A stretch of 64,000 bases of DNA from NCBI GenBank assembly GCA_949383255.1, contig CASJPF010000013.1, forward strand, positions 1 through 64,000. The letters are read 5' to 3'. The stretch comes from Lachnospiraceae bacterium (GTDB taxonomy: Bacteria; Bacillota; Clostridia; Lachnospirales; Lachnospiraceae). Shown one piece after another: positions 444 to 17,481 of the stretch. The notes under the pieces are model-generated. The model was not told the origin of the DNA and searched no databases. It worked only from the letters and a program-made list of their open reading frames with translations. The position numbers were made by a program, and so were the translations under genes. Position 1 is the stretch's first letter. Every line of letters starts with the position of its first letter.

Positions 444-462
444 ATAATCTCCTTTCATGAAA

Positions 463-486
463 CAACCCACGCTTACAATACCTGCC
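463..486 (-). repeat. Left copy of an inverted repeat that recurs at 11360-11386
   Basis: On the minus strand this reads GGCAGGTATT then GTAAGCGTGGGTTG. The same string, with three extra T, is on the plus strand at 11360-11386, so the two copies are inverted relative to each other and enclose almost 11 kb of accessory genes. It sits about 20 bp upstream of the recombinase start. Possible identities are a terminal inverted repeat, a recombination core site or a shared leader of mobile-element genes. Confidence 0.6.
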
Positions 487-592
487 GCCGCCTTAACCCT
501 ATCATGTCAGACAGCTTATGCCAAGTATAGCATTTTCGTGGGTATATCTCAATGATTCTTTTAATATATTTGCTGCAAGCGGCAAGATAAAA

Positions 593-757
593 TTACGAAG
601 CCCTTTGTTTTTCGTGCTGTTTTGCTTCATGGATTATCAGGTTTTCCATAAGGCTTTCCATTGTTTTCCCGCTATCGGCAAAATGTTCCGATATGATTAT
701 CCTTACATTGCCGTACTCAAAATAGCCGGATTTTATAGTGTTGTTTGTTTTTTCCAT
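593..757 (-). CDS. tnpW: TnpW-like small mobile-element protein (54 aa)
   Basis: Too short for many gene finders. ATG at 757 follows a perfect ribosome site (GGAGGAGATAT), and the frame ends with TAA at 593. The protein starts MEKTNNTIKSGYFEYGNVRI and continues IISEHFADSGKTMESL, the layout of TnpW-family proteins (a short 'GNxxYxIxxxF' strand pair followed by a helix ending in a charged tail). TnpW proteins have no established biochemical function but occur in clostridial integrative elements beside serine recombinases, which is the case here: the recombinase starts about 150 bp downstream on the same strand. Family assignment is by pattern recognition of a very short sequence. Confidence 0.6.
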   Translation of the reverse strand: MEKTNNTIKSGYFEYGNVRIIISEHFADSGKTMESLMENLIIHEAKQHEKQRAS

Positions 758-933
758 ATATCTCCTCCAATTCTCTTTTATTGGGAGATGGTTTGTGCTA
801 TACTCATTCTTTAGCAGTACCAGCTTCCGTGATATTGAAATACCATTTTTAGTCTAAAGAAAAGCAGGCAAATCCACATTGAGCACGAACTGACTGCTGA
901 TTGACTAAAAATGGAAAAAGGAGTTTTAAATTT

Positions 934-2352
934 ATGGAGCGTCTTGATTTTTGTTCTGTTATGAGTGTCATGCGCCGCTATGTAAGTGAAGATAGAGGAA
1001 TCAGCCAAATTGATTTTCTGTATATGCTGTTTGATGATTATTTCCAAAATAGCGATACTGATAATTTTGTGCTGGATAACGGGCTTGTCTGCCGCTGGAT
1101 AAACGGTCAGGCAAAAATAAGCCCCAAGATTACGGGATATTATATTTCTGATAAAAAGGGCAGGAATGACTTTGTAAAGAATTTTGAGGAAAATATATTG
1201 CCTTTGTTTTATGATGCGGGGAGTGTGATAACCGAGATACATGATTTACTGGTACAGGATAATTCAATATCGGAAATGCAACGGCAAAAACTCAACAATA
1301 CATATCCGTGTAAAACAGAAAGGACACAGGCAGAATATTTTACTGACCTGCTGTTATTCAGTATGGAGCGGAATTTTGTAAAAAGGGACAGCAAAACAAA
1401 AGAACTTCTTGCCACTGGAAACCTTTCTCCAGTGATGGCAGATTACATATATGAAAATGAAGTGCCGAAACCATGCCGCTATTTCTGCGGACGCGATAAA
1501 GAGCTTGATACGCTGCATCAATTACTTACTGACGAGGGGAAAATATTTTTACATGGTATTGCGGGAATTGGGAAAAGCGAGCTTGCAAAAGCATACGCAA
1601 AGCTGTATAAGAAAGAATACACCAATATTCTTTACATCATATACAGCGGGGATTTAATGCGTGATGTTACCAATATGGATTTTTCTGATGACCTGCCGGA
1701 AGATACTGCTGATGACCGTTTCAGGAAGCATAACCGTTTTTTACGGTCTTTAAAAGAGGTTACGCTAATCATTATCGACAACTTTAATACCACGGCAGCA
1801 AAAGATACATTTTTATCTGTCATGCTCAAATATAAGTGCCGCCTGCTTTTTACCACCCGCAGCAGGATAGAAAGCAGTCCCTGTATGCTGCTCGAGGAAA
1901 TCAGCGACAGAAATATACTTTTAGAACTTGCTGGAAACTACTTTACAGATGCACCGAATTACAAGATAGTCATGGAGCAGATTATAAAAACTGTACATTT
2001 CCATACCTTAGCCGTGGAACTGTCCGCGCGGCTGTTACAGACAGGAATATTAGAGCCGGAAGAACTTCTTAAAAAGCTGGAGGAAGAAAAGGCGGGAATA
2101 TCGGCAACCGACAAGATTGGCATCACAAAGGACGGCGAGAGCCGCAGGGCAACTTACTATGACCATATCCATACACTGTTTTCGTTGTACAATCTTGATG
2201 AAATGCAGACCGAAATCATGCGCTGTCTGTCACTTGTCCCATTGTCGGGAATCCCGTCAAAACTGTTTGCAGCATGGTTAAGGCAGCTTGACATGAACAA
2301 TATAAATGATTTTCAAAGAGCGCGGCATCACGGAACATCCAACCATACATGA
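934..2352 (+). CDS. NB-ARC/STAND-type ATPase, C-terminally truncated
   Basis: The start is taken at ATG 934, behind AAAAAGGAG, rather than an in-frame TTG at 901. The 472-residue product has a helical N-terminal region of about 180 residues, then an NB-ARC nucleotide-binding core: Walker A HGIAGIGKSELAKA (about 207-220), Walker B LIIIDNF (about 278-284), an RNBS/sensor motif LLFTTRS (about 304-310) and a later FHTLAVELSARLL segment. STAND proteins usually end with long TPR/LRR-type sensor repeats. Here the coding sequence stops soon after the winged-helix part, at a junction with relaxase sequence (from about 2315). In bacteria such ATPases often act as phage sensors or regulators, but without a sensor domain this copy is probably inactive or altered. 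Its island neighbours include several defence genes. Confidence 0.75.
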   Translation: MERLDFCSVMSVMRRYVSEDRGISQIDFLYMLFDDYFQNSDTDNFVLDNGLVCRWINGQAKISPKITGYYISDKKGRNDFVKNFEENILPLFYDAGSVITEIHDLLVQDNSISEMQRQKLNNTYPCKTERTQAEYFTDLLLFSMERNFVKRDSKTKELLATGNLSPVMADYIYENEVPKPCRYFCGRDKELDTLHQLLTDEGKIFLHGIAGIGKSELAKAYAKLYKKEYTNILYIIYSGDLMRDVTNMDFSDDLPEDTADDRFRKHNRFLRSLKEVTLIIIDNFNTTAAKDTFLSVMLKYKCRLLFTTRSRIESSPCMLLEEISDRNILLELAGNYFTDAPNYKIVMEQIIKTVHFHTLAVELSARLLQTGILEPEELLKKLEEEKAGISATDKIGITKDGESRRATYYDHIHTLFSLYNLDEMQTEIMRCLSLVPLSGIPSKLFAAWLRQLDMNNINDFQRARHHGTSNHT

Positions 2353-3190
2353 AGGAGTGACAGCCCGTATTATGGAACAACAGTGGAATGTGTCGGAACG
2401 CTGTGAGTTAAACCGTCAAATCAGGGCAGACAACAGGCTCTTGCGCGGACTGAAAATGGAACTTCAAAAGATTGCCGAAGCAGTAAAAACTTCCATTCCA
2501 AAGATAGCAAAGGCAATGGAAAATATTTTTGCTAATCTGATTATCAGTCACTACAAACACAAACAGGCACAAAAAGCAGTAGCGCAGTGTGATGAATGGC
2601 TTAACTGAATAAAGCCTGAATATCAGAGATATAACGATATAAAGAGAGAAAACAAGTCGAAAAAATGCTTTCTGTGTGACCTCAGATCAGAGCAAAAGGC
2701 AACCTCAAAATTAAACATCTCCAAACAGGTCAGTCTGTCAAAAGAAATTGCGAAACTGATTGAGGACATGGAGGAATTAAAATCCGAGCTTTCCAATCTG
2801 CTTTTATATTATAAGGACGAAGTAGAATTCAAGGAAGTATGTTCAAAAATACCTGAATATGAGGAAAAACGCAAGGTGTATTCAGACTTACAGCATACCC
2901 TTGAAACGAGGATTGCAGAACATACAAACAATTTTCTTTCCTTAAAAGATAAAATTGCACCAAATGAGGAAGCAGCCCTCAAAAAAGAACGTGAGTTACT
3001 GCACCCTGATACAGTCACACAGGCACGGGAACATCTCCAGTCTGCTTATAAAGATAAGTTTGACAATAATCAATTTGCAGAAGCTAAATCTTATGTTTCT
3101 GATTTGCTGAACGAAACAGAACGGGAGTATTCCATCAGGCAACGATTGGAGCAGGCAAAGATTCAATCTAAGCAACAGAATCACCAATAG
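2306..3190 (+). pseudogene. mobL: 3' remnant of a MobA/MobL-family relaxase
   Basis: One reading frame carries relaxase-like C-terminal sequence across this stretch, interrupted by an in-frame TGA at 2606-2608. Upstream of the stop it reads ERGITEHPTIHEGVTARIME and later RCELNRQIRADNRLLRGLK, which is characteristic of the region after the catalytic domain of MobA/MobL proteins. Downstream it continues as a long coiled coil (EEALKKERELLHPDTVTQA, then YSIRQRLEQAK) typical of the same family's tail. The catalytic N-terminus with the His triad is absent. The start of the homology falls inside the end of the STAND gene in another frame, so the two genes were joined by deletion or recombination. 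Part of the tail could be translated from ATG 2768, but nothing suggests that it is functional. Confidence 0.75.
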
Positions 3191-3229
3191 GTTAATAAAA
3201 GCCAGAAAATTATATGTTAAATAGATTAT

Positions 3230-3266
3230 CTCAAATGCCATGTGTCTTTATCACACGGCATTTGAG
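3230..3266. terminator. Strong hairpin in the 3190-3590 gap; probable terminator or element-associated palindrome
   Basis: CTCAAATGCCATGTG and CACACGGCATTTGAG pair almost perfectly around a short loop. The T-rich stretch that follows (GATTTTCACTTTTTC) is some distance away. The rest of the 400-base gap up to the XRE gene is AT-rich and shows no convincing gene or other element. Confidence 0.5.
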
Positions 3267-3589
3267 GTCTGTTGATTTTCACTTTTTCTATTGCATTTTT
3301 CCTAACTCTTTCTGCTTTATGCAAAAAGTTCATTTGATAACTTGCGATTTTTTTCAACACAGAAAATCTCTCTGACTTTGACTTGCAGTTCCTAATTGTC
3401 TGTATATTATGGGTTTATGACATCTACAATTCTATTTTTAACTATTGTTTCACCAACTTTCTGTACCGCTCAGATAGTATTTCCCTTGCGTGAGTGTAGA
3501 AACAATTAAAAAGCATGTGGCAAAAGAACAAATATTTTCTAGCAGTAATATATTATACTGTTTGTGTCGGCTTACGCTAAGGTAAACGA

Positions 3590-3784
3590 CTATTCAATAA
3601 ATTTTAAAATATCGTTTGGTGTACAGTCTATGAGCTTACATAGTTTTTCCACAGTCGCCGTTGAAATATAACAATTTCTTTTCATGTTGTATATCGTCTT
3701 ACCTGCAATTCCGTGTTGAATCAGGAAATATTGCGATATTCCCTTTTCTTCCATAATCTTCCAAAGTGGAGAATAGTCAATCAT
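3590..3784 (-). CDS. Small XRE/Cro-type HTH transcriptional regulator (64 aa)
   Basis: Start chosen at ATG 3784, 8 bp after GGAGG; an upstream in-frame GTG (3793) would overlap that site. The whole protein is a single helix-turn-helix domain of the Cro/C1 type: MIDYSPLWKIMEEKGISQYF, KTIYNMKR, and a last helix STATVEKLCKLIDCTPNDIL. This short one-domain type is very common on clostridial mobile elements. It is divergent from the small gene at 3937; the 14-bp palindrome at 3869-3882 over that gene's -35 box is a plausible binding site. Function as a repressor is inferred. Confidence 0.85.
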   Translation of the reverse strand: MIDYSPLWKIMEEKGISQYFLIQHGIAGKTIYNMKRNCYISTATVEKLCKLIDCTPNDILKFIE

Positions 3785-3866
3785 TTTTATCACCTCCGTC
3801 TGCCTATATTATCTCCAAACGGAACGAAATTTTGCAGGCTGTATATTTACGTTACGATAATTTATA

Positions 3867-3895
3867 TTGCGATACATATCGCACTATGTTATAGT
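3867..3895 (+). promoter_or_regulatory. Sigma-A promoter overlapped by a palindromic operator
   Basis: TTGCGA (3867-3872), a 17-bp spacer and TATAGT (3890-3895) form a good vegetative promoter reading toward the gene at 3937. The perfect palindrome GCGATAcaTATCGC (3869-3882) covers the -35 end and spacer, the classic position for a repressor site. The divergent XRE gene at 3590-3784 is the obvious candidate regulator. Confidence 0.65.
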
Positions 3896-3936
3896 GGATA
3901 TGTATCTAATACAAACATGGAAGGAGTGTGAGCAAG

Positions 3937-4203
3937 ATGGACAATGAGATTTTTGAGATGATAACAGAATCCCTAACAGAAGGCAGGATAAGCCAGATAA
4001 TGAATTGCGATGAGGAGTATCAGGCGGCAAAATTACATGAAAGAGTGGCACACGATAAACTTATGGAAATGCTGAACGACCAGCAAAAAGAACTACTTGA
4101 TAATTTTACAACAGCGGCATGTGAAACAAATGCCAATGCCGAACGGATAATTTATCAGCAAGGCATGAAAGATTTGTATGCATTGATTATGGCATTAGCA
4201 TAA
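3937..4203 (+). CDS. Small helical protein of unknown function (88 aa)
   Basis: ATG at 3937 is preferred because AAGGAG lies 10 bp upstream; the in-frame GTG at 3928 would be almost on top of it. The product is acidic and entirely helix-like (ITESLTEGRISQIMNCDEEY, then LMEMLNDQQKELLDNFTTAA) and ends with GMKDLYALIMALA. It resembles small DUF6809-type proteins of Lachnospiraceae mobile elements in size and layout, but I would not assign the family firmly. It follows a promoter with a palindromic operator and ends 24 bp before the toxI promoter, so it belongs to the same regulatory neighbourhood as the type III toxin-antitoxin locus. Confidence 0.7.
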   Translation: MDNEIFEMITESLTEGRISQIMNCDEEYQAAKLHERVAHDKLMEMLNDQQKELLDNFTTAACETNANAERIIYQQGMKDLYALIMALA

Positions 4204-4226
4204 TTTTAAAAAATTTATGAAATAAG

Positions 4227-4254
4227 TTGTAATTAATCAGAAATAGTGTATACT
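4227..4254 (+). promoter_or_regulatory. Promoter of the tandem-repeat antitoxin RNA
   Basis: TTGTAA (4227-4232), 16 bp, TATACT (4249-4254). The expected transcription start, near 4261, coincides with the first base of the first RNA repeat (4262), which fits a dedicated promoter for the antitoxin RNA and its toxin gene. Confidence 0.65.
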
Positions 4255-4261
4255 AAATATA

Positions 4262-4332
4262 GCAGGTGATGCACAGCCTTATAAATGAGCGAGTTTTAAG
4301 CGGGTGATGCACAGCCCATAAGTGAGCGAGTT
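4262..4332 (+). ncRNA. Type III antitoxin RNA (ToxI/CptI-like), two tandem repeats
   Basis: Two near-identical units, 4262-4295 and 4300-4332, have a period of 38 bp. Both contain GGTGATGCACAGCC followed by TGAGCGAGTT; they differ at only a few positions. Directly after them comes an intrinsic terminator (4340-4368) and then a ToxN/AbiQ-family toxin gene. In known type III systems the toxin is an endoRNase that cuts its own repeat RNA into pseudoknotted units, which inhibit it, and the weak terminator sets the RNA-to-toxin ratio. Position, period, terminator and neighbour all match. The pseudoknot fold itself was not computed. Confidence 0.75.
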
Positions 4333-4339
4333 AACAGAT

Positions 4340-4370
4340 GGCAGAGGCAATTAAAGTCTCTGCCTTTTCT
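4340..4370 (+). terminator. Terminator between antitoxin repeats and toxin gene
   Basis: GGCAGAG (4340-4346) pairs with CTCTGCC (4358-4364) and is followed by TTTT. Its place between the RNA repeats and the toxin gene is diagnostic of type III toxin-antitoxin loci, where partial read-through supplies toxin mRNA. Confidence 0.75.
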
Positions 4371-4391
4371 GTAAACAGGCAAAGGAGCTTT

Positions 4392-4871
4392 ATGAAAGAC
4401 AATATTAAAATATATGGCGTAAAAGATGCCTATATAAAATACTTGAGCCAATATCAGGAGCACTTGTTTCTGCACGAGGGCGGAGCGTTCGGACGAAAAT
4501 ACATAGGCACTGTCTTGGAGATTAACGGATTATCTTATTTTGCACCATTATCTTCATTTAAGTCCAAACACAAGAAAATGAAAGAAAGTGTAGACCTTAT
4601 CAAAATAAAAGACTATGCTGTTATCAATCTTAATAATATGATTCCTGTACCAAAAGAACAATTGATTGCGCTAGATATTAACGCAGAAAAAGATCCGCAC
4701 TATAAATTTCTTCTGCAGGCTGAAAGCCGTGAAATTAACAGGCAGAAAAATCGAATAAGAAAAAATGCGGAAATAGTTTATAACCATAAAAAGCGAAACA
4801 GGGATTCCACGCCGTTAGCGAAAAGGACGAATGACTTTGTATTATTGGAAAAGAAATGCAGGGAATATTAA
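4392..4871 (+). CDS. toxN: Type III toxin, ToxN/AbiQ-family endoribonuclease (159 aa)
   Basis: The start is ATG 4392 after AAAGGAGCTTT; an in-frame ATG at 4338 lies inside the terminator and is rejected. The product has the family's hallmarks: an opening strand IKIYGVKDAYIKYLSQYQ, then RKYIGTVLEINGLSYFAPLS with the SFKSKH segment around the presumed catalytic lysine, the NLNNMIPVP strand, LDINAEKDPHYKFLL, and the C-terminal FVLLEKKCREY, which closely parallels the AbiQ and ToxN ends. Length is normal for the family (about 160-180). These toxins cut host or phage RNA and cause abortive infection; the preceding repeat RNA is the antitoxin. The locus is encoded opposite to the downstream restriction operon. 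Confidence 0.85.
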   Translation: MKDNIKIYGVKDAYIKYLSQYQEHLFLHEGGAFGRKYIGTVLEINGLSYFAPLSSFKSKHKKMKESVDLIKIKDYAVINLNNMIPVPKEQLIALDINAEKDPHYKFLLQAESREINRQKNRIRKNAEIVYNHKKRNRDSTPLAKRTNDFVLLEKKCREY

Positions 4872-4953
4872 AACATAATTTCTAAAAATGATAACAAGTG
4901 GAGAAATTATTAAGTTTTTTAATTCTGTAACAAGTTTAATAATTTTGTTTTAA

Positions 4954-4999
4954 AATATGAAATGGGTGAAGCCCAATTTTTGCTTTCCCATTTCATATT
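4954..4999. terminator. 13-bp inverted repeat in the 4871-5295 gap
   Basis: AATATGAAATGGG (4954-4966) pairs with CCCATTTCATATT (4987-4999) and is flanked by AT-rich sequence (TTTTAAA before, GCAAAATAG after). It lies between converging genes, the toxin and the RES gene, so it may serve as a bidirectional terminator. Nothing else is seen in this 424-base gap. Confidence 0.45.
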
Positions 5000-5294
5000 G
5001 CAAAATAGTGGTATGAAGATAGAATTTATCCAAATTTGAAGTAACAAATTTAGAACTGTTTCTATAAAAACAAGAATAAATGTGCTAGAAAACCATGTAA
5101 GGCATTTTGGATTCAAATAATTGAAACCATATTATTATGACTATCATTTGACATATTAATAACAATATTTTATTCAATCCGTTATAGTTTATCTGCCTGT
5201 TTCAAAATATTCGCATATATTGCCTGTTTGTGTATCTGCTGAATACAAATTTTTTCTTTTGACATATTTTTACTACATGAATTCATATCTATGA

Positions 5295-6215
5295 TCAAAG
5301 CTTTGTCCCTTTAAGCGTCTGACGGCTTTTTATCTGATTCATAAGTTTATCCTTTGTTTCCCTCTCTACCACTTGTTCTACATTTGCTATATTACGAATA
5401 TCTTTATGTTCTTCCAACTTATCCATTGAGACAAATAAACTTGCTGTTGCATAATGAATCAACACACGACTGTCTATCCACCGAAACTTTTTCATCGTGT
5501 CATCAAAAAAGGTATAATTATTCCCATTTGTATAAAAACTCCTATAAGCAAATCCTGTAAAATTCTTTTCACGAAAATGATCTACTATTTTCTGAGTTAT
5601 ACAATAATCATTTGGATTATCAATTAGTATTGGTATTGTAAAAAGAGCAAGCATTTTTTCTAAAAACTGACGTGCATTTGCATTATACTTTTTATCATTA
5701 ATATCTAATGGTTCCGAATATTTCAACTTTGAAAAGTCAATTACCTGAACATCTTCCGTTGATTTAAATTCTGCAACCGAAACTAATTGGCGAATTGGCG
5801 GTTTTATTTCTGAACAAGCAGTGATTTCATCAGACGCTAAATACAATGCCACCTCACCTTCACGGCTTGTACGACCAGCCTTTGCCTTTTGAGCAGGCGG
5901 TTCTTTCGATTCTTCCCAATTATATCCATACAACCGTTCCTCTGAATAGCCGATTCCTTTGTCAACTCTTTTATCATCTTCTTTGTCTAAAATGCGGGCG
6001 CGATAAAAAATTGTGTCTTTAGGTATAGAAATAACAAATTGTTCTTTGAAATCATTTAATATAATTTCATCCATTAACCATAATGCTTTCTGCACTTCCG
6101 CTGTATTAGCTTCCTGACTGCCAGATGCCCAACTATATAGGTTATTAAACAGTGCTGCGGATGTGTTTTCTCTTGAATCAAATTCTGCTATTTTCCTTAA
6201 ATCTTCATCGTTCAT
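5295..6215 (-). CDS. RES-domain protein coupled to the restriction-modification operon (306 aa)
   Basis: The start is ATG 6215, 8 bp after GGAAGG; it overlaps the end of hsdS by 11 bp, a sign of translational coupling. RES domains are ADP-ribosyltransferase-fold toxins; characterised members degrade NAD+. The signature residues are visible: Arg in FYRAR (about 72), Tyr in ALYLAS (about 125), Glu in ACSEIKPP (about 136) and Ser in YRSFYTNG (about 226). About 65 residues precede the domain and 60 follow it, so the protein is longer than stand-alone RES toxins (about 150-230 aa). Normal RES toxins pair with a small Xre-type antitoxin; none is adjacent here. The gene instead ends an operon RM-S-RES, suggesting that the enzyme complex controls or is backed up by an NAD-depleting effector. 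That role is inference. Confidence 0.8.
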   Translation of the reverse strand: MNDEDLRKIAEFDSRENTSAALFNNLYSWASGSQEANTAEVQKALWLMDEIILNDFKEQFVISIPKDTIFYRARILDKEDDKRVDKGIGYSEERLYGYNWEESKEPPAQKAKAGRTSREGEVALYLASDEITACSEIKPPIRQLVSVAEFKSTEDVQVIDFSKLKYSEPLDINDKKYNANARQFLEKMLALFTIPILIDNPNDYCITQKIVDHFREKNFTGFAYRSFYTNGNNYTFFDDTMKKFRWIDSRVLIHYATASLFVSMDKLEEHKDIRNIANVEQVVERETKDKLMNQIKSRQTLKGTKL

Positions 6216-7656
6216 AACAAATTCCTTCCCCATGCATATATTTTAATACTGCGTTTTCTCCCTGCTCAATTGCTATTTCAACTAATTCAATGGCTTTATT
6301 TAACAGATTTTTTCCTCTCTTTCTTGCTACATTACTTTCAATAATTAAACTCTTTATTTTATTTTGTATTTCAATATCAATTATCGGCAATGGAATTTTT
6401 AATAATTCATCTTTCCCAATTGCTGAAAGAATCGTTCCTGAACAGCCCTTTTTCAATAATGCCTGAACAGGTTCACTTTTAAACAGTAACATTAATGTTT
6501 CCGCATTTATAAAATCACTATTAAGGACGTAAAAACCGTTTGTACAAACATATCCATCACAGTCATCCGTTACAAGGGCACACTTCGACAAAGAGCCTTC
6601 AACAGATGATATTATAACATCATTTGTGAAAACTTTTCTTCTCGCCCTCGTTGGTAAATCAATACCATAAATTCTGTCACATTCGGAAATATCCCCCTGT
6701 TGTCCCACATTAGACAATTCAATATATTGGTATTCAGTCTTGTCGTCAGGATTATAATTCACATCTTTAATCGTACATATATCACCAACAAGTGCATATC
6801 CACAACGATATTGTTTTAATACTGTTTCATAGTTATCATATTCACACTGATAAAATTCTGCGTCCAATCTTCCTGTATCTCCAAAAGAAGTTTTAAATGA
6901 TTTTATTGCATACCTTTCAATTTGGGTATTAAAATCCTGCAACCCCAATGTTTCTATCAACAATTGTTCTGCCTCACTATAAATCTGTACTGCCTCATCC
7001 ATAAGCATTTTTATTTTGTCTACATACTTTTTGCAAATATACTGTAGCTTTTTTGAAAATTTCGGAATAAATAATTGCTCAAAGTCTTCTAATAATAACC
7101 CTGTCTGTGCTGCACCCCGCTTAAATTTTTGAATCTGGTTCTGCCCATATTTTGTCTTAATAAATACAAGCATTGTTTCTGGCATAATACTTTCATCATA
7201 TGACCGCAATATTGCCAATTTACAACTACAAGTTGCCTCCCTGCCGGATGTTACCAATGCACTATTTCCAATAATCGCTCCGACAATTGACATCAGCACA
7301 TCACCTTTCTTTAAATAGGAGCGTCGCATTGTAGGTTTATTATATGCCTCATTTGAAATGTGTAGCGGGCTTGAATTTTCGATGAACAAATTATATATAT
7401 CTTGCCCTCTGTAATATGGTACACCTTCATTACAAAATTCATCGCTAATAGACATATGATTCCCATCAGACACATTAAAGCACTCGCTGAATGCACTCTT
7501 ATCCCATTTATTCAAAATTTGTTTTACAAGAAGGTTCTTTTTTTGATAAAACTCTGCATCAATTCTACTTGTTCTTTCTAAATCTGATAACCTTATTTCA
7601 CTAACTTCTAACCCATCCATCAACTTCTCATAATACACTTCATCAAACTCCGCCAC
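6205..7656 (-). CDS. hsdS: Restriction-modification specificity subunit (HsdS-like), two target-recognition domains
   Basis: The product has two half-repeats: TRD1 at about 40-190, ending in KYVDKIKMLMDEAVQIYSEA, and TRD2 at about 265-430, ending in NKIKSLIIESNVARKRGKNL. Both halves carry typical specificity-subunit phrases such as GDVLMSIVGAIIGNSALV and NDVIISSVEGSLSKCALV, and each ends with a spacer helix. The annotated start is a GTG at 7656 with no clear ribosome site; an ATG 12 codons later is an alternative. The frame is open further upstream, back to the T8 run at the end of the methylase gene, so a fused product by -1 slippage is possible. This subunit would direct the nuclease-methylase encoded just upstream to a bipartite site. 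Confidence 0.85.
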   Translation of the reverse strand: MAEFDEVYYEKLMDGLEVSEIRLSDLERTSRIDAEFYQKKNLLVKQILNKWDKSAFSECFNVSDGNHMSISDEFCNEGVPYYRGQDIYNLFIENSSPLHISNEAYNKPTMRRSYLKKGDVLMSIVGAIIGNSALVTSGREATCSCKLAILRSYDESIMPETMLVFIKTKYGQNQIQKFKRGAAQTGLLLEDFEQLFIPKFSKKLQYICKKYVDKIKMLMDEAVQIYSEAEQLLIETLGLQDFNTQIERYAIKSFKTSFGDTGRLDAEFYQCEYDNYETVLKQYRCGYALVGDICTIKDVNYNPDDKTEYQYIELSNVGQQGDISECDRIYGIDLPTRARRKVFTNDVIISSVEGSLSKCALVTDDCDGYVCTNGFYVLNSDFINAETLMLLFKSEPVQALLKKGCSGTILSAIGKDELLKIPLPIIDIEIQNKIKSLIIESNVARKRGKNLLNKAIELVEIAIEQGENAVLKYMHGEGICYER

Positions 7657-7667
7657 AGATGGGTCAT

Positions 7668-9653
7668 CTAAAAAAAACTTAAATGCTCCTTCTTTGCAAA
7701 TTCTATAAACGCCTCGGCAATTCCATCTTCCGTCAATCCATCATGATTATACAAATCGTGTTTTACAATCAAATGATTATGCATGTCCAACATATAAGAA
7801 CCATCTGCATTTACACGATAAATCTTATCCCCTGAATTATCTTTGCTCGGCTCTCGCATTGTCGCAAAGAAAATCGGATAATCTTCCTTTTTTGGACACA
7901 ACTTGTCATCCCACTTTTGGACGAACAATACTGAGGTTTTTGTTCCCGTATGTGGTTTAAAAACATTCCCATGTAACCCAACAACGGCAAGTATTCTGCA
8001 TCTTTCTGCAATAAAATCCCGAATATATTTATCGGAAGCATTATTAAATCTCCCTTGAGGCAGAACAATTGCCATCCGCCCCCCATCTTTTAGAAATGAT
8101 AAATTCCTCTCTATAAACAAAATATCCCTTCCGACTTTAGACTGGTATTTTCCCTGTGCATTTTTGCCCAACTCATATTTTGAAATAATGCGGCTTTCTT
8201 TGATATCTCCTGCAAATGGAGGATTTGCCATAAGTACATCAAACTCGAAATCTCTATTCTGATTCTTGGTCTTACGCATGGCTTTAAGACCTCTCCATCC
8301 ATCATAGTAAATATCTTCCCATTCTTCATCTTTCGTCAAATCGTCCCATCGTTCATAATCAAGAGTGTTCAAATGCATGACATTTGTTCGGCCATCTCCT
8401 GCTATCAAATTGAGTGTCCTCGCCACACGAACCGCTTTTGTATCAAAGTCTATTGCAAAGACATTCTCTTTAACATAATCTTCACATTCTGGTGGTTTCT
8501 TTTCTGTTGTGAATAAATGACTCTGCGATATACCTTTCTCTGCCAATATGCTTTTCCAAACATGAAATATGGTATGTACGGGAAAACCGCAACTCCCAGC
8601 AGCAGTATCAATCATCTTCTCATTTTTCTTTGGGTTAAGCATTTTAACGCACATATCAATTACATATCTCGGCGTAAAATATTGCCCTTTTTCCCCTTTT
8701 TGTGACTTTCCCATTAAATATTCAAAAGCATCATCAACTACATCCAAATTAGAATTAAAGAGCTTTACGTCCTGTAAGCTCGCCACACATACCGCAAGAT
8801 GGGAAGCTGTCAGTATAATCTTTTCATCTTCATTAAATACGCCCATCCATTTTTTCTTAGCTCGGTTAAATAAATCCTGTATGGTAGTTTTTAAGTCCTC
8901 ATCCGTATCGCCATAATTACGAAATTCAAGAGTCCTGCTTTTATCTCTTCCACTTTCCATTTCATCATACAGTTTTGTAAATATCAGTTTAAATACTTCC
9001 TCAAAGACATCTACTCCAGCATTAGCTAATACTTCATCTTCCATTTCCTCTATCAAATCTTTCAACGATTTCTTTTCGCTTACAAGCTTGTCTTTTGCCA
9101 CAAGGTCATCTATCGTCCATCTTTCCGTCAAAATATCTTTAAGTTTTTGCGATTCCTTTGGAATATTAGGTATATCTTCAAAATAATTAGGGTCTTTTCT
9201 ATGATAATATGATATTTGATCGCCATTCGTCCATATGCCAATAATTGCCCCTGTAGCATTGCAATATGATTTTAGTTGCTCCTTTCCGTCCTTGAGTTTC
9301 GGCTTTTTTAGTTCTACAATAATTTCCTCTGCGGTAGGATTTGTCTTAGAGAAAATAACTATATCTGCACGTTTTTTTTCTCTGCCAAAAGAAATAGCCC
9401 TTTCAAGTTCCATTCTCTCAATAGGATAACCATATTCTGTAACCAGTTTATGAATATACAATTGCCTTACGAGTTCTTCTGGCGTCAGCTTAATTTCCTT
9501 ATCTCTAACAAGACATTTTACATATACTATATCCTTGCCCTGTTTATTTTTTCTAATGCTCAAACGCTTTCCAATCTCGTCTATTCCAGTTTGCGAAAAC
9601 TGTGTCAATTTATAATTAGATTCTGTAATAATATCATAAAGCATTTCATTCAT
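7668..9653 (-). CDS. Nuclease-methyltransferase (RM) subunit of a BcgI-like restriction system (661 aa)
   Basis: Two enzyme domains are fused. Residues about 60-145 form a PD-(D/E)xK nuclease of the HsdR_N type: RADIVIF with Asp 97 and IIVELKKPK with Glu 114 and Lys 116. From about 210 onward it is an N6-adenine methylase like HsdM: QYFTPRYV (324), the SAM motif DTAAGSCGF (349-357) and the catalytic NPPF (477-480). No SF2 helicase or HsdR gene is present in the window, and the partner is a separate HsdS, so the architecture matches type IIB/IIG enzymes (BcgI A plus B) rather than classical type I. The start ATG 9653 follows GGGAG by 8 bp. The gene ends in a run of eight T, and the specificity gene begins 11 bp later in the -1 frame. 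Confidence 0.85.
   Translation of the reverse strand: MNEMLYDIITESNYKLTQFSQTGIDEIGKRLSIRKNKQGKDIVYVKCLVRDKEIKLTPEELVRQLYIHKLVTEYGYPIERMELERAISFGREKKRADIVIFSKTNPTAEEIIVELKKPKLKDGKEQLKSYCNATGAIIGIWTNGDQISYYHRKDPNYFEDIPNIPKESQKLKDILTERWTIDDLVAKDKLVSEKKSLKDLIEEMEDEVLANAGVDVFEEVFKLIFTKLYDEMESGRDKSRTLEFRNYGDTDEDLKTTIQDLFNRAKKKWMGVFNEDEKIILTASHLAVCVASLQDVKLFNSNLDVVDDAFEYLMGKSQKGEKGQYFTPRYVIDMCVKMLNPKKNEKMIDTAAGSCGFPVHTIFHVWKSILAEKGISQSHLFTTEKKPPECEDYVKENVFAIDFDTKAVRVARTLNLIAGDGRTNVMHLNTLDYERWDDLTKDEEWEDIYYDGWRGLKAMRKTKNQNRDFEFDVLMANPPFAGDIKESRIISKYELGKNAQGKYQSKVGRDILFIERNLSFLKDGGRMAIVLPQGRFNNASDKYIRDFIAERCRILAVVGLHGNVFKPHTGTKTSVLFVQKWDDKLCPKKEDYPIFFATMREPSKDNSGDKIYRVNADGSYMLDMHNHLIVKHDLYNHDGLTEDGIAEAFIEFAKKEHLSFF
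7670..7677 (-). other. T8 homopolymer at the RM/S gene junction (possible slippage or phase-variation site)
   Basis: On the coding strand the methylase ends AGT TTT TTT TAG. Slipping back one base on this run avoids the stop and continues SFFLDDPSVAEFDEVYY straight into the specificity subunit frame. An extra T in the DNA would have the same effect permanently. Whether either happens is not known. Confidence 0.45.
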
Positions 9654-9822
9654 GGCATTGTCTCCCTTATTTATAGGTATATAAAATAAATTTTACCATA
9701 ATTGTATTCTTTTTACAGTAATTTAAGTTTTTCTGTGTAAGCATAAATCAGTATCTTTTCTATCAAAAACAAAGTCATTTAAATCTGGCTGTTACTATTG
9801 TTTTTGAAAGTATGTTTTACTA

Positions 9823-10764
9823 TTATTTATTTTTTATGTTGTTTATTAAATCATTTAGTTCACTCATACATTGAATTGCCTTTTCTGAACCAAATAAATA
9901 TTTTTGAGACATCCCAATTTGTATAAGATTATAAGCCGTAACTCCTTGCAATGACATATTTATAATATTACCATCGGAAATATCTTTTGAAAACAAAGGA
10001 GCATCCTTCGCTTTGACTCTTAAGATAATTGCTAATTTTTTTGAAATTGGGATACAAATATCATTAAGACCTAACCAAATGGGTTTAGCTGGATCATCAC
10101 TTATAATAAAATCCAAATCTGTATAGTTATAAGCAATATACCAGTTATAGTTAATAAGTAACTTATTCATTGTCCCTAATGTTGGAACGAGTGATACTAA
10201 GTTTTCTATCTGTTGCTGTTGCCCTGATATGCAATTTGTTTTTATTGAATTTGCCTTATCTTCTTCACTTAATCCAACATTATCACACATTTCCCTCAAA
10301 ACTTGTTCTGTTTTTTCATTCATTTTATCGATCATATCTCTAAAACTTTTCGTGCGATATGCTAAACTATGAACAAAAGAGATAAAAATGGCTCTCGTTT
10401 GTTCGGTATAAATGCTCTGGGAATTAGCTTCTAGGTCATTTAACATTTGATTATATGCACCTTCTTCTCTAGATAATGCATGTTCAACAAATTGTTCATC
10501 TTGAAGGTATTTATTGTCTTTTAACTCTGGAAAAACATCAAAATCATTTTTTAGTACTTTTTCTAATATGTCTTTAGGTACATCATAAAAATAATTAGTT
10601 GATGCAAAATTCCATGGACTCTGGTTATGTAACACCTTTCCATCTTTTTTGAATAATACGGATATTTTTGGCTTTTTGTCTGTGCCATAACCAAACCTTT
10701 TTAGGTACATTCGAGGAACGTAGTGTTGATTTTTGGTCTTTTTTATAGTTATATCATTACTCAC
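9823..10764 (-). CDS. DUF4238 family protein (313 aa)
   Basis: The GTG at 10764 is 7 bp after GAGGT. The N-terminal signature KNQHYVPRMYLKRFG is the defining DUF4238 motif, followed by a WNFASTNYFYD segment, a central helical region with FISFVHSLAYRTKSFRDMI, and a C-terminal strand region DLDFIISDDPAKPIWLG with PISKKLAIILRVK. The family has no proven biochemical function, but members are frequently found in mobile and defence islands. No signal peptide or membrane segment is seen. It lies about 170 bp upstream of the restriction operon on the same strand but probably has its own transcript. Its role here is unknown. Confidence 0.75.
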   Translation of the reverse strand: MSNDITIKKTKNQHYVPRMYLKRFGYGTDKKPKISVLFKKDGKVLHNQSPWNFASTNYFYDVPKDILEKVLKNDFDVFPELKDNKYLQDEQFVEHALSREEGAYNQMLNDLEANSQSIYTEQTRAIFISFVHSLAYRTKSFRDMIDKMNEKTEQVLREMCDNVGLSEEDKANSIKTNCISGQQQQIENLVSLVPTLGTMNKLLINYNWYIAYNYTDLDFIISDDPAKPIWLGLNDICIPISKKLAIILRVKAKDAPLFSKDISDGNIINMSLQGVTAYNLIQIGMSQKYLFGSEKAIQCMSELNDLINNIKNK

Positions 10765-10899
10765 TGTCTTTACCTCGCGATTCCGCTTCCAAATCTAAAA
10801 GTTGTATAATAGTTACTTAAATAAAAGGCTTGATATGATATTCTATCATAAAAACGAATAAAATAACATAAAAAGCATACATTTTTGTAAATTAAATAT

Positions 10900-10922
10900 G
10901 GACAGATTGCTTATGTCTGTCC
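10900..10922 (-). terminator. Hairpin downstream of tnpV
   Basis: GGACAGA and TCTGTCC (10900-10922) pair perfectly around 9 bases. On the minus strand a T/A-rich tail (TATTTAATTT) follows. It lies 10 bp beyond the tnpV stop, so it is a likely but weak terminator. Confidence 0.45.
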
Positions 10923-10932
10923 ACATGAATAA

Positions 10933-11313
10933 TTATTGATATATCAATTCGTTACAAACTATTTCTTCTGCTGCATTGCGAATATTATTTACAGCTCTTA
11001 CCCAGCCAAGCCAATCCTCTGACTTTAAATTTTCTGTAATGCCCTGATGCTTCATCAGTTGCTGTACTAATATTTCCATCTGTTCATTAGCAGCATCGTC
11101 TATTTCGTTTAAATGACTGATAAGTCTACCCTCCATGCGGAGCGAACTGTATAACCCTTTTTTGTGTTTCTTGATATAATTCAACCTCATACTGCCATAT
11201 TTGCCATAATGCGGATCTTCGTCCTTTGGGAATTCCAAGTTGGGATAGTAGTAATCCCCAATCAATACATAATCAATTCCCTTCTCTGTGATTCTTGGCT
11301 TTAGTTCTTTCAT
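10933..11313 (-). CDS. tnpV: TnpV-type transposon-encoded protein (126 aa)
   Basis: ATG 11313 stands 9 bp after GGAGG. The sequence has the TnpV layout: an opening DYVLIGDYYYPNL, then GKYGSMRLNYIKKHKKGLYS, a helix SHLNEIDDAANEQMEILVQQ and the C-terminal GWVRAVNNIRNAAEEIVCNE. TnpV proteins are cargo or accessory proteins of clostridial integrative elements such as the Tn4451 and TnpX-type families; no catalytic activity has been shown. Together with the TnpW-like gene and the recombinase at the left, it marks this 11 kb as mobile-element DNA. The inverted repeat at 11360-11386 lies just upstream. Confidence 0.85.
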   Translation of the reverse strand: MKELKPRITEKGIDYVLIGDYYYPNLEFPKDEDPHYGKYGSMRLNYIKKHKKGLYSSLRMEGRLISHLNEIDDAANEQMEILVQQLMKHQGITENLKSEDWLGWVRAVNNIRNAAEEIVCNELIYQ

Positions 11314-11359
11314 TGTCGTATACCTCCATAATCGTTGTATTTATTAGTTTTTTACTTAT

Positions 11360-11386
11360 GGCAGGTATTTTTGTAAGCGTGGGTTG
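11360..11386 (+). repeat. Right copy of the inverted repeat (see 463-486)
   Basis: GGCAGGTATTTTT then GTAAGCGTGGGTTG on the plus strand. It is identical to the minus-strand copy at 463-486 except for three extra T. It lies 14 bp from the point where the XRE gene at 11400-11537 breaks off, so it probably marks the right end of the island. Confidence 0.6.
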
Positions 11387-11399
11387 ATGGTTCGTTTCC

Positions 11400-11537
11400 T
11401 TAACTATGTGAAATTCCTGTTTCCCATTTTGAAACAGCCTGTCTTGATATGTCTAATTTTTTTGCTAAGTCCTCTTGTGTGTAATGATGGCTTTTGCGTA
11501 GAAATTGTAAATATTTTGATATAATATTCATATTCAT
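11400..11537 (-). pseudogene. XRE-family regulator truncated after the HTH (45 aa)
   Basis: ATG 11537 follows GGAG by 8 bp; a longer in-frame start at 11660 has no ribosome site. The product MNMNIISKYLQFLRKSHHYT then QEDLAKKLDISRQAVSKWET is a textbook XRE helix-turn-helix, but it stops at KWETGISHS. Intact homologues continue with a PDLExLxKL helix and usually an effector or membrane domain. The break lies beside the inverted repeat at 11360-11386, which suggests that insertion of the island removed the 3' part. The short product might still bind DNA. The SdpI-like membrane gene upstream (11767-12120) could have been its partner. Confidence 0.7.
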
Positions 11538-11766
11538 AAAAATCACTCCTTTATACATGATAATACATATAGAAAGAAGAAAAAAGAATTTGGTGCGTGC
11601 GCAAAAGCAAATATCAGTTGCGTAGTTATGGTTCATTCTGTCCTGTGCAAAGCGTAACATTGCATAGTTTCAACCATTCAAGGCGGCTATTTGAATTTTT
11701 GTTGTATAATAGTAACTGTCTGCCAGAGCATGTTAAAAAATACTGTAAGATACTTTAGAACCTTTC

Positions 11767-12120
11767 TTATTTGTTTATAAACTTCTTTTCTATTTCCAAA
11801 TCAGTTTTATAAAATCCCAAAAGCAAGAATCCCAGTCCTACAAAACATCCAACGCTGAGAGTAATATGAATTGAGACATGAAATAAAAACATCACTATAC
11901 TTACTACAATCTCAATTATTCCCAAAGTTTTTCCAATAGATATAAAAATATCAGGCGCAATACTTTGTGCATAATCCCAGTGTGCTTGCGTCTTTCGTGA
12001 AATTGGCGTGTTATATCCATTGCCTGACTTCATATCTGACACAGGATGCTTTTTTAGAGTATATCCCACTAAAATCAATACAAATGGCATAATTAAGTTT
12101 GTAATTAGTAAAAAATACAT
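11767..12120 (-). CDS. SdpI-like small membrane protein (117 aa)
   Basis: Start set at ATG 12120, 8 bp after GGAGG, instead of the longer ATG at 12135 that contains that site. It has three predicted membrane helices: FLLITNLIMPFVLILVGYTL, then FISIGKTLGIIEIVVSIVMF, then HITLSVGCFVGLGFLLLGFY. Between the first and second lies NGYNTPISRKTQAHWDYAQS, which matches the SdpI-family GYRTxxSMKNxxxWxxAN motif. SdpI is the immunity protein against the SdpC toxin in Bacillus, but most family members are uncharacterised. The nearby XRE remnant suggests a regulator-membrane protein pair disrupted by island insertion. Confidence 0.7.
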   Translation of the reverse strand: MYFLLITNLIMPFVLILVGYTLKKHPVSDMKSGNGYNTPISRKTQAHWDYAQSIAPDIFISIGKTLGIIEIVVSIVMFLFHVSIHITLSVGCFVGLGFLLLGFYKTDLEIEKKFINK

Positions 12121-12337
12121 GCACTTTTCCTCCATAAATTTCGATTCTTATTTGACTGAATCTTATAGCATTTAATAAGTTTATATTTTGTCCTTGTGAA
12201 GCCTGCAGACCATTGAAGATGCTAAATTTATAGTAGAGAGGCTTGCCCTCACGCTTTTCCTTGTGTTATATCTTTTTCCCAAACAATCCAATAGCCTATT
12301 TTTGTTATGAAACCTTATAAGGAAAAAAATAAATTTT

Positions 12338-13060
12338 TCAGCGCAAAGTCTCCATTTGCCATCTTAATTCATTCCAAGTCTTTACTGTCAAAATATCTTT
12401 ATCCTCTGTGTATGGTAAATCAATCGCTCCAATATACCATACCGGAAATAATCCTGCACATAACGCACCCTTTATGTCGCATTCATATTGATCACCGATA
12501 TACCACACATCCTCTGGCGCAAGTTCTGCTTTTTCCAATGCCAAATCAAATATTCTTTTATTTGGTTTGCGAAATATATAATTGCTTGAAGCGATAATAA
12601 ATTCAAAAGCATTTTCTGGTAGCAATCTATCAATACGTTTTGTGACAACAGTTTCTGCATAGGTAATATTACTGATTACTCCTGTGCGGATATTATTATT
12701 CTTTAAATATTCCAAAAATTCCTCAATTCCCTCCGTAGGCTTTCCCTGTGCAGCAGCATTCCAAAATATAGTGTCAATTTCTTCATTATTTAATGGAATT
12801 TCTATTCCCTGCGATTCATAAAGATATGATGTAAACATCATATTAGGAACTTCTATCTGCATCAAGTGCCTTCTCTGCGGATCAAATCTTCCCAATTCTT
12901 GATTAATTTCATTTGCTTTTTCTTGCACCTGTTCGGCACACAAATGATATTTATTTTTTGTGGCATATTTTAGCACTGCCTCCGTTCCTTTTACACCATC
13001 AAATTTTTCCTCTATAAGCGTTTGCCCATAATCAAACAGAACCATTTTAGGCACTTTCAT
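12338..13060 (-). CDS. HAD-superfamily hydrolase (240 aa)
   Basis: ATG 13060 lies 8 bp after GGAGG. Haloacid-dehalogenase motifs are in order: motif I FDYGQTL (nucleophile Asp 10; the second Asp of DxD is replaced by Gly), motif II in TGVISNIT, motif III Lys in FRKPNKRIFDLAL, and motif IV YIGDQYECDIKGAL. A helical cap lies between motifs I and II, as in subfamily IA phosphatases. The Gly in motif I is common in Firmicute members annotated as phosphatases or pyrophosphatases, so the substrate, probably a small phosphorylated metabolite, cannot be named. Monocistronic; the 218-base gap downstream (12120-12338) shows nothing clear. Confidence 0.85.
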   Translation of the reverse strand: MKVPKMVLFDYGQTLIEEKFDGVKGTEAVLKYATKNKYHLCAEQVQEKANEINQELGRFDPQRRHLMQIEVPNMMFTSYLYESQGIEIPLNNEEIDTIFWNAAAQGKPTEGIEEFLEYLKNNNIRTGVISNITYAETVVTKRIDRLLPENAFEFIIASSNYIFRKPNKRIFDLALEKAELAPEDVWYIGDQYECDIKGALCAGLFPVWYIGAIDLPYTEDKDILTVKTWNELRWQMETLR

Positions 13061-13272
13061 CCATTATACCTCCACTTGAAAATTTATAATAATCATACTT
13101 TTTGCTGTGAATAATTGCTACTTTCCTACTTTTGATGATAATACCGCTTACAGAAAGTCTGCAAAAACTTCCATTCAGATTATAATCTTTTTTATTCATT
13201 CAAACAACATATGTATTTTATAAATCCCCGCTTTAAACAAATTTATAGAGTTTTTTATCACAGCTCCTTATA

Positions 13273-13917
13273 TTATATCTTAAAAGAAAGTATGAATAAC
13301 ACACAAATGATAAGCATTAGTAGTGCCGCTAATAAAACTCTAATATTTATCTGCATTTTACTGGAATCCGTCTTAGACTCAATCAAATTTGATCGGCGCA
13401 AAGCAGTGACAATAGGTTTATACAATAGCATTGTTATTGCTGCATTCAGCCCGCCTTTAATCAAATTGAACGGTAAAAATGCTGGAATTAATAATTCTAC
13501 AATCGCTTCCCTTGGATAGCCCATATAGATAGGCGCAATCAAATAATTCCAAAGCATCATAACTACAGCCTGACAACCACAGCCGCAAAAAAGCCCGAAT
13601 AATGCACCAGATAGCCTATGTTTCCTTTTATAAATAAATGCGGCAGTACACGCAAAGGAACAGCTCGAAATAATGTTCATAAAGCAGCCCAAAATTCCTG
13701 TTCCGCTAATCGTAAACATTTGTACTATAGAAACAATTATTGTTATCGCAAATGATGTAAGTGGTCCAAAAATAAATCCACCAATTACTATAATAACATC
13801 TTTAGGGTCATACTTCAAAAAAAGTACGAGCGGGATACGCCCAACCACCACTGCGACATAAGCAAGGGTGCATAGCATACTTATTGTTGTTAGTTTCTTT
13901 GTTTTACTGATCTTCAT
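13273..13917 (-). CDS. ribU: ECF transporter S component, riboflavin-type (RibU-like)
   Basis: Product of 214 residues with five to six membrane helices: LTTISMLCTLAYVAVVVGR, DVIIVIGGFIFGPLTSFAIT, IVSIVQMFTISGTGILGCFM, LFGLFCGCGCQAVVMMLWNY and a last helix VLLAALLMLIICVLFILSF. The GTGILGCFMNIISS segment is typical of RibU. Substrate binding proteins of this class join the shared ECF energising module (EcfA, EcfA', EcfT), which is encoded elsewhere, and import riboflavin. The assignment rests on the FMN riboswitch directly upstream as much as on the protein. ATG 13917 is 7 bp after AAGGAGG. Confidence 0.88.
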   Translation of the reverse strand: MKISKTKKLTTISMLCTLAYVAVVVGRIPLVLFLKYDPKDVIIVIGGFIFGPLTSFAITIIVSIVQMFTISGTGILGCFMNIISSCSFACTAAFIYKRKHRLSGALFGLFCGCGCQAVVMMLWNYLIAPIYMGYPREAIVELLIPAFLPFNLIKGGLNAAITMLLYKPIVTALRRSNLIESKTDSSKMQINIRVLLAALLMLIICVLFILSFKI

Positions 13918-13931
13918 TGAAATACCTCCTT

Positions 13932-13977
13932 AAAAAAATTAACACTTGAAAGTGTCTGACTGCCTTTCAGGTGTTAA
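13932..13977 (-). terminator. Riboswitch expression-platform terminator before ribU
   Basis: The arms AACACCTGAAAG and CTTTCAAGTGTT form a 14-bp stem that includes flanking bases and one G-U pair. Seven T follow immediately, and then the AAGGAGG of ribU. Transcription would stop before the ribosome site when FMN is bound. Confidence 0.8.
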
Positions 13978-14067
13978 AATTTAAGGTGTATTGTAAATGC
14001 CTACAGAGCAATTTAATAAAAAAGAGTGCAAAAAATAATGGTCAGTTTAATTCTGACAATTTCAATA

Positions 14068-14184
14068 CACCTTCTTTAATCCGGACTATACCGTCGGTTT
14101 TGGAATTTCACCAACCCCCGCGCTTTCGCGCCCGCGGACTATAACCGCCGATCGGGAATTTCACCCTGCCCTGAAGACATCATC
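14068..14184 (-). ncRNA. FMN riboswitch (RFN element)
   Basis: The minus strand shows the conserved RFN core in order: CTTCAGGGCAGGGTGAAATT, CCCGATCGGCGGTTATAGTC, CGCGGGCGCGAAAGCGCGGG, TTGGTGAAATTCC, CCGACGGTATAGTCCGGAT and the closing GAAGG that pairs with the 5' CTTC. It is complete and lies about 90 bp before the terminator hairpin and ribU. FMN binding is expected to switch off the riboflavin transporter. Confidence 0.95.
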
Positions 14185-14322
14185 GCTATTCAATTGTTTA
14201 AAAAATTATAGCACACAACAAAGAAAAAGTCAACTTTCGTTTGGCTTAAAACCTAAGCTATTGTTACAGTTCAGTTACTGTTCAAGGCATGAAAACCTCT
14301 TATAGCAACGAACTTCTACAAA

Positions 14323-15069
14323 CTAACTATGCCAATTTACAAAAAGCATTCTTATCCGCACAGTCAGCCAAAGAAACAGCACAATCAACATACAGATTCC
14401 TGTCACAAGCAATGTATACTGCCAAAATCCAGACCAGTCACCACGATATAACCTCCCAATAGCAGGAATCCCAAGCACCATTGCAAAATACCAAAACACA
14501 GGAATAAAAAAACGTCCTATGGTGGTCTTTTGTACTGTTTCTATACCCATAAAAAATTGTTTACAAAGCTTTCCTGCCAGATAATAAATAACAAAAAGCA
14601 TTGAAAAATATACTGCTGTACCAATCATTGTATGAAGCTGTTCTGCCGTTATCCATGCTGGTAAAATCTTCTTGCCGGCTAAGGCAAGCGGTAAATAAAT
14701 TGAAACTGTAATCCGAATTCCATTGACAAAGATAGTTGCTATATAAGAAAAGATAGTACTAAATCCCAACCAGCACACCTTCTTTCTCATAGAATCTACT
14801 ATAGGAACAAATGTAAAAACTATCATAACAAACGCAATGAGCAGGAACCGCACACCAGAACAAGACGGCGCTATAATAAAACGATATTCATGACTCACAT
14901 ATCCAACCTGTGTAATCTTCTCAAAAGAAATGCCGCTTAGAATCTGCACCCACTTTGTAGTGGGTGCTAGAATCCAGAAAAGCTGTTCACTGTCCGCTGT
15001 ACGATAATACACCTTAACTGCAAGTACAGCTAGAATCGCCGGAATATAGATTGTTAGATTCTTTTTCAC
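14323..15069 (-). CDS. Exosortase/archaeosortase-family membrane protease (248 aa)
   Basis: The start is GTG 15069, 6 bp after AAGGAGG; the longer ATG at 15093 would contain that site. The protein has about seven membrane helices and the three exosortase catalytic positions in the right contexts: Cys 70 in APSCSGVRFLLIAF, Arg 119 in FVNGIRITVSIYLPLAL and His 146 in EQLHTMIGTAVYF. Exosortases are transpeptidase-like membrane enzymes that process proteins with a short motif, one membrane helix and a basic tail. The protein encoded 74 bp upstream (VIT/vWA) ends exactly that way, so it is the likely substrate. The XrtK subtype is my guess. Exosortases are mainly known from Gram-negative bacteria and cyanobacteria, which makes the host unusual. 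Confidence 0.8.
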   Translation of the reverse strand: MKKNLTIYIPAILAVLAVKVYYRTADSEQLFWILAPTTKWVQILSGISFEKITQVGYVSHEYRFIIAPSCSGVRFLLIAFVMIVFTFVPIVDSMRKKVCWLGFSTIFSYIATIFVNGIRITVSIYLPLALAGKKILPAWITAEQLHTMIGTAVYFSMLFVIYYLAGKLCKQFFMGIETVQKTTIGRFFIPVFWYFAMVLGIPAIGRLYRGDWSGFWQYTLLVTGICMLIVLFLWLTVRIRMLFVNWHS

Positions 15070-15143
15070 AACAAACCTCCTTGTCATTGGCATCTCAACT
15101 CATTTTGTGCAGAACACTTCCACAGCTTTCAAAAACTGTCTTT

Positions 15144-17363: not shown

Positions 17364-17481
17364 CTACCTATACCGCCTTTCTCTAAATTATCTATTATAA
17401 AGAACTGTACGAAATTATTGTAAAATAGATATAACTCACCTTTTCCAGTTCTTTTGTTAGTGTTATCATACAATTTGAAAT

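Follow-up and report, generated by a model that had tools for sequence, protein, structure and literature searches.

A candidate three-gene defense operon coupling a Type IIB-like restriction-modification pair to a RES-fold effector

Overview

The window analyzed here, 64,000 nucleotides of contig CASJPF010000013.1 from a Lachnospiraceae bacterium (assembly GCA_949383255.1), carries at positions 5295-9653 three minus-strand genes, arranged head to tail and transcribed in the order M, S, RES: a fused restriction-methylation subunit (M), a specificity subunit (S, or HsdS), and a protein of the RES family. We lean toward reading them as a single defense operon, in which a Type IIB-like restriction-modification (RM) pair is accompanied by a translationally coupled RES-fold abortive-infection effector that the RM complex restrains. 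To judge from their families, M and S would mark self DNA and cut unmodified DNA, while RES, produced in step with S through translational coupling, would when switched on break NAD+ (perhaps NADP+) with phosphate, the loss of NAD+ stopping the cell before the phage completes its growth. By analogy with PrrC and EcoprrI, the RM complex would hold RES inactive and free it once restriction is blocked or overwhelmed; this restraint, plausible on that analogy, is the weakest part of the explanation. The arrangement suggests that RES is a built-in back-up defense.

The papers cited in this work, given by PubMed Central number, are represented by extracts of their text, and statements about them hold for those extracts. 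According to PMC11535050, as of 2024 immunity had not been linked to any toxin-antitoxin system with a RES domain, and where immune systems were known to target NAD, the enzymes were of the TIR and SIR2 kinds. If RM and S do guard RES, a RES enzyme would have a direct immune role, and the operon offers a concrete system for asking whether RES enzymes serve as phage-defense effectors. It also bears on the question whether an RM complex can be the antitoxin of a metabolic toxin, as EcoprrI is for a tRNA nuclease.

The restriction-modification pair

The M gene (7668-9653, minus strand) encodes 661 aa, with the Pfam domains HSDR_N_2 (1e-27), N6_Mtase (3e-32), and Eco57I indicating an N-terminal nuclease fused to a C-terminal N6-adenine methyltransferase. 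Residues D97, E114, K116, and Q126, together with the motif NPPF (477-480), are invariant across seven homologues, and we take these to be the catalytic motifs. The closest solved structure to M is RM.BsaXI (8w0p, E 2.2e-24, residues 215-581), a Type IIB enzyme (PMC11997821). The S gene (6205-7656, minus strand) encodes 483 aa with two target-recognition halves; it has no Pfam match at E 0.01, and it matches PADLOC Type I specificity models (best 6e-27), mostly as two stretches, with S subunits in the PDB covering both halves (7vru_C for residues 72-198 and 5ybb_D for residues 290-445). Type IIB enzymes of the BcgI/BsaXI kind cleave both strands to either side of a bipartite site and need no ATP translocase; a Pfam scan found no translocase domain in M, S, or RES. 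A one-subunit nuclease and N6-adenine methyltransferase served by a separate, two-half S gene is the organization of Type IIB enzymes of the BcgI/BsaXI kind; unlike those, the operon described here has a third, coupled gene for a putative effector. Membership in the MADS family of systems was considered and rejected, the MAD2 and MAD5 models scoring 322 and 115 bits, below their cut-offs of 720 and 400. An open reading frame (ORF) check, Pfam, and PADLOC agree with the gene set and coordinates of an earlier, sequence-only reading of this DNA, and its description of the RM genes as a BcgI-like pair fits the fused M, the separate S, and RM.BsaXI as top PDB match.

Coupling of RES to the specificity gene

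The RES gene (5295-6215, minus strand) encodes 306 aa from the ATG at 6215 and is predicted to be an NAD+ phosphorylase effector; its longest ORF (5295-6233, minus strand) would give 312 aa if the upstream ATG at 6233 were used. The start at 6215 is the likelier one, since it yields an 11-bp overlap between the S stop and the RES start (6205-6215, minus strand) with an AAGGA that ends 7 bases upstream, placing the ribosome site inside S. The overlap and the internal ribosome site that the sequence-only reading had proposed are thus recovered from this ATG. In the one close relative that carries all three genes (L051, below), the overlap is again 11 bp, and in both cassettes the putative effector is therefore coupled to the RM operon, as would be expected of a PrrC-like arrangement with an RM guardian.

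The RES protein

The third protein matches PF08808 at 40.8 bits against a cut-off of 23.2, and the Pfam scan returned no domain besides RES. In the 306-aa numbering, R72, R115, Y125, E136, and S226 are invariant in 30 of 30 aligned RES sequences, and the position of N233 is N in 26 of the 30. The best fold matches of its predicted structure are the RES toxins MbcT and NatT, in keeping with a RES/ADP-ribosyltransferase (ART) fold. The NatT site comprises R23, R82, Y93, S184, and N193 (PMC11535050); the S and N of our protein align with the NatT residues in a profile alignment of non-significant E value (0.99), with the numbering offset deduced, whereas for the two R and the Y the match is one of motif and order only. 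Sequence searches of solved structures reached NatT or ParT only at E values of about 1-2, once behind unrelated bromodomains, with the other matches attributable to chance; a PHROGs search with RES and three of the slot proteins described below gave zero matches, and a RES scan of viral contigs led nowhere. An N-terminal domain common to HEPN and RES proteins is described in PMC3710099.

To judge from its family, the protein is a probable NAD-destroying enzyme. The sequence-only reading had put this more broadly, that RES proteins destroy NAD+: such destruction is demonstrated for NatT (PMC11535050), and for the present protein it is expected from the family. That RES might instead be a ParT-like ADP-ribosyltransferase, with a protein or nucleic acid as its target, and not an NAD+ phosphorylase, we consider improbable; ParT-ParS shares with MbcT-MbcA and NatT-NatR the predicted fold and conserved residues found here. 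From these RES-Xre systems our locus differs in that no Xre/MbcA/ParS antitoxin was found, in a longer protein with helices flanking the RES core, and in its RM partners.

Conservation of the three-gene cassette

When the RES sequence was searched once against 84,980 species genomes, two close relatives emerged. One, L051, on the contig of a metagenome-assembled genome, preserves the whole cassette, with M 89%, S 61%, and RES 84% identical. Within window 1-20000, its DNA matches ours solely over positions 9527-6831 and 6282-5221; the similarity ends about 75 bp past the RES stop, which places RES inside the shared cassette. The dN/dS values relative to L051 are 0.12 (RES), 0.29 (S), and 0.03 (M), and RES is under purifying selection. 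The sequence-only reading would have failed if RES were adjacent in this strain only; this condition is set aside by L051 and by the more remote RES genes, discussed below, that accompany RM genes of Type I and Type III-like systems. The idea that RES is degenerate here is likewise rejected, given an open frame, the conserved residues kept in all 30 sequences, and the low dN/dS.

The cassette looks mosaic, because synonymous divergence differs between M (dS 2.2) and RES (dS 0.64) and because DNA identity to L051 rises at the end of M and in the first half of S. Across window 8150-5301, identity is 85-96% over the end of M and the first half of S (the latter alone being at 85-94%), falls to 37-67% in the second half of S, and stands at 80-91% in RES; this pattern suggests that the second recognition half of S has been swapped.

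The second relative, L052, is a RES gene (47% identical) whose N-terminal part is interrupted by an in-frame stop; the stretch examined around this orphan gave no match to M or S. Such a stop is what would be expected of a toxin cut loose, and so favors an alternative in which RES and RM stabilize a mobile cassette, with M and S as the antitoxin, harm to the cell upon cassette loss, and phage defense as a secondary effect. Two further observations agree with that alternative, namely that plasmids and viral contigs also carry M-S cassettes related to ours, and that no antitoxin of the MbcA/ParS type is matched in the genome: PF09722 (Xre/MbcA/ParS antitoxin) has 0 matches in our own assembly, which is 86% complete. 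The absence of an Xre-type antitoxin noted in the sequence-only reading is confirmed to that extent, the upstream neighbor of RES being S and the two small helix-turn-helix (HTH) proteins nearby (3590-3793 and 11400-11660) matching other HTH families. Against an addiction cassette, the distant RES matches described below are free of internal stops although most have no detected RM nearby, and RM systems are themselves able to work as addiction modules (PMC12707154); we give this alternative little credence.

An effector slot behind S

The survey of homologous RM-S pairs for an adjacent RES gene, which the sequence-only reading had proposed, started from 37 M-bearing loci and counted 19, those with M at 59-100% identity, a complete S, and at least 585 bases beyond S. 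Eleven loci (L038-L041, L058, L067, L070, and L080-L083) were dropped with M below about 57% over the aligned length, among them L038 (50% over 564 aa, though 63% over its best 375) and the fragment L083 (54% over 307 aa); six (L021, L033, L054, L064, L068, and L069) were dropped with a contig end truncating M or S, with a broken S, or with no S match beside M. L063, which is the L031 contig again, was not counted, and the duplicate L062 was dropped; the survey also leaves out phage matches H32-H38 and plasmid matches H42-H43.

A coupled ORF of at least 100 aa, with its start at -13 to +10 relative to the S stop, follows S in 11 of the 19 loci. In the other eight no such ORF was found. The 11 occupants comprise RES in two loci, AbiJ in one, a family with an R-x4-H motif in four, and other genes in four. 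AbiJ (PADLOC AbiJ 6.5e-81, Pfam Abi_C 8e-21) occupies the slot of L031, whose M is 80% identical to ours. The R-x4-H motif is invariant in the slot proteins of L057, L059, L061, and L066, a fold search with the slot protein listed no HEPN structure, and L040, one of the loci dropped from the count, also has an R-x4-H gene after S. The other occupants are those of L034, L036, L055, and L084, of which that of L036 is a HAD hydrolase and may be unrelated.

The slot is thus optional and variable, and at least one of its occupants is a named abortive-infection protein. Because AbiJ fills the same slot in a close relative, an abortive-infection role for RES is reasonable, and a defense role is supported in so far as the slot behind S is an effector slot; RM systems seem to have several interchangeable suicide effectors attached to them, RES looking like one of these. 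Two of the surveyed loci merit separate description. The L031 cassette, at 7992-12338, is a close M-S relative with AbiJ as its third gene on a 118-kb IMG/VR viral contig. In L084 (7942-9345), the slot protein is 252 aa long, belongs to no family, and overlaps S by 13 bp, and it is followed by an 8xMP membrane protein.

RES genes in other restriction-modification loci

More distant RES genes, at 22-36% identity, were gathered from 392 order-level genomes (E 1e-5) and 397 family-level genomes (1e-10), two overlapping samples that yielded 27 loci. Five of the 27 are located with Pfam-confirmed Type I or Type III-like RM genes. In L111 a Type I R-M-S operon is followed by RES 14 bp after S, in L108 a Type I M-S-R operon is followed by RES after 278 bp, and in L044 RES comes after a Type I system and two further genes. 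In L099 (2674-12145) RES lies inside a Type III-like RM operon, in a row of SNF2 helicase, RES, DUF4391, Mod-like methylase, and endonuclease. The fifth, L042 (934-11352 of contig C80), is the second RES gene of the genome studied here; it follows a Type III-like methylase/helicase pair within a same-strand gene run that also holds a protein kinase and a Schlafen-AlbA_2/HATPase gene. A sixth candidate, L107, has a helicase-like match, by phmmer only, 4.9 kb from RES. The resulting fraction of 5-6 in 27 is rough, with overlapping samples searched at different E limits, several stretches cut by contig ends, and RM queries drawn mainly from RM-positive loci. Within our own genome, at most 6.0% of the assembly is taken up by RM methylase or S matches together with 9 kb to either side, and both RES genes fall inside this share; this base rate was computed after the fact, with a flank that is generous since the second RES lies 8.3 kb from its methylase match.

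Under a wider proposal, RES NAD+ phosphorylases would have been taken up time and again as guarded abortive-infection effectors by RM systems of Types I, IIB, and III, with RM-S as the antitoxin in our operon and phage anti-restriction freeing RES; this we entertain only tentatively and on balance doubt. On the RES tree the RM label is unclustered (6 changes, with 82 of 500 shuffles as low), and a label so scattered fits repeated recruitment but fits proximity within defense islands as well.

Guarded effector or passenger

The alternative that must be weighed most directly against a restrained effector is that RES is an independent defense or toxin gene lodged behind S, using the translation of S or a promoter of its own, with no physical or regulatory link to the RM genes. 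Several observations weigh against the proposed restraint of RES or speak for such a passenger. Eight of the 19 M-S pairs are without a coupled third gene, including the close L078 (M 81%) and L079 (M 75%), although another of the eight, L065, may hold a broken remnant of a slot gene. RES without detected RM nearby is common: it accounts for 21 of the 27 genomic loci, and among 46 plasmid records with a RES match, all seven regions viewed are without an annotated RM subunit beside RES, in a gene table that is itself incomplete. Among the 10 upstream proteins scanned at nine of the 21 loci without detected RM there is no Xre_MbcA_ParS antitoxin either, and thus the lack of an Xre partner is not enough to identify the RM complex as an antitoxin. 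The scatter of the RM label over the RES tree points the same way, as do the ToxN gene at 4338-4871 and the STAND-like ATPase at 901-2352, other defense-type genes in the neighborhood. Finally, a promoter-like match (9/12) at 6269-6240 (minus strand) stands just ahead of the RES start, making expression from its own promoter possible; the scan gave 39 such matches against 25.4 (sd 5.8) in shuffles, somewhat over chance, and these are consensus matches only.

Four observations argue against a mere passenger: the 11-bp overlap in two diverged cassettes, a cassette edge that falls shortly beyond RES, the presence of AbiJ in the corresponding slot of a close relative, and, in L111, a separate Type I operon with RES 14 bp after S. 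With these in view, we regard an unconnected passenger as rather unlikely, and continue to lean toward the three-gene operon with a restrained RES.

The loci without detected RM show other associations of RES as well. Among the nine scanned, neighbors include a TIR-domain protein (L050) and a ParE-RelB pair (L104); in L050 (5561-11108), RES is directly downstream of the TIR-domain gene, and a protein of similar N-terminal sequence lies on its other side. In six genomes of the window's order that form one clade (L045, L049, L097, L098, L113, and L114), sce7725 lies beside RES, with sce7726 also present in five of the six and L098 showing only sce7725 before its contig ends; the same sce7726-sce7725-RES set occurs on a Pseudorhizobium plasmid (L115). 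This module is a candidate for a separate RES system.

Relation to known systems

The general idea that immunity genes hold a linked suicide gene in check has been published (PMC3506569, PMC3710099), including a coupling hypothesis under which immunity proteins keep the suicide genes of RM loci under control and the toxins replace one another (PMC3506569). The nearest parallel is PrrC-EcoprrI, likewise a suicide effector encoded with RM genes and without a separate antitoxin (PMC3506569, PMC3710099, PMC12707154): PrrC, an anticodon nuclease, is latent in a Type Ic RM complex and acts when restriction is blocked. The present system differs in that its effector is a RES enzyme rather than an ABC-HEPN nuclease and its RM is Type IIB-like, with control by RM proposed by analogy. 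The same operon logic is found in the HEPN/Abi RM operons (AbiJ, Abi2, Ymh, and others; PMC3710099), to which the AbiJ in the RES slot of L031 provides a bridge; PMC3710099 documents HEPN families including AbiJ in RM operons, and its table lists AbiJ solos there. The RM-linked toxins it names are HEPN, Sir2, ParB, REase, Doc, and RhuM, and RES is not among them in the extract.

RES as an RM-linked toxin was absent from full-text literature searches, which covered the literature without most subscription papers and bioRxiv preprints, and the extracts of PMC3710099, PMC12707154, PMC7301842, PMC2701414, PMC3482391, PMC8987985, and PMC7824862 do not tie RES to RM. The sequence-only reading had known of no described RM-RES system of this form; this stands for the specific combination within those searches, with the concept of an RM-guarded suicide gene being already published.

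Neighboring genes

Directly upstream of M lies a gene for a DUF4238 protein (9823-10764, minus strand) with a weak PADLOC DUF4238-Pers match; it has no match in the L051 stretch and was rejected as a fixed part of the system. An Rfam scan of window 1-14000 gave no matches. On the plus strand beyond RES, the ToxN/AbiQ toxin gene (Pfam ToxN_toxin 3e-47) is preceded by a 38-bp tandem repeat of 1.9 copies at 4261-4332, and the interval 4261-4871 is, by these signatures, a probable Type III ToxIN system adjoining the RES operon. The ATPase at 901-2352, also on the plus strand, is STAND/NB-ARC-like and a possible further defense gene; the anti-phage models that it matches score far under their cut-offs.
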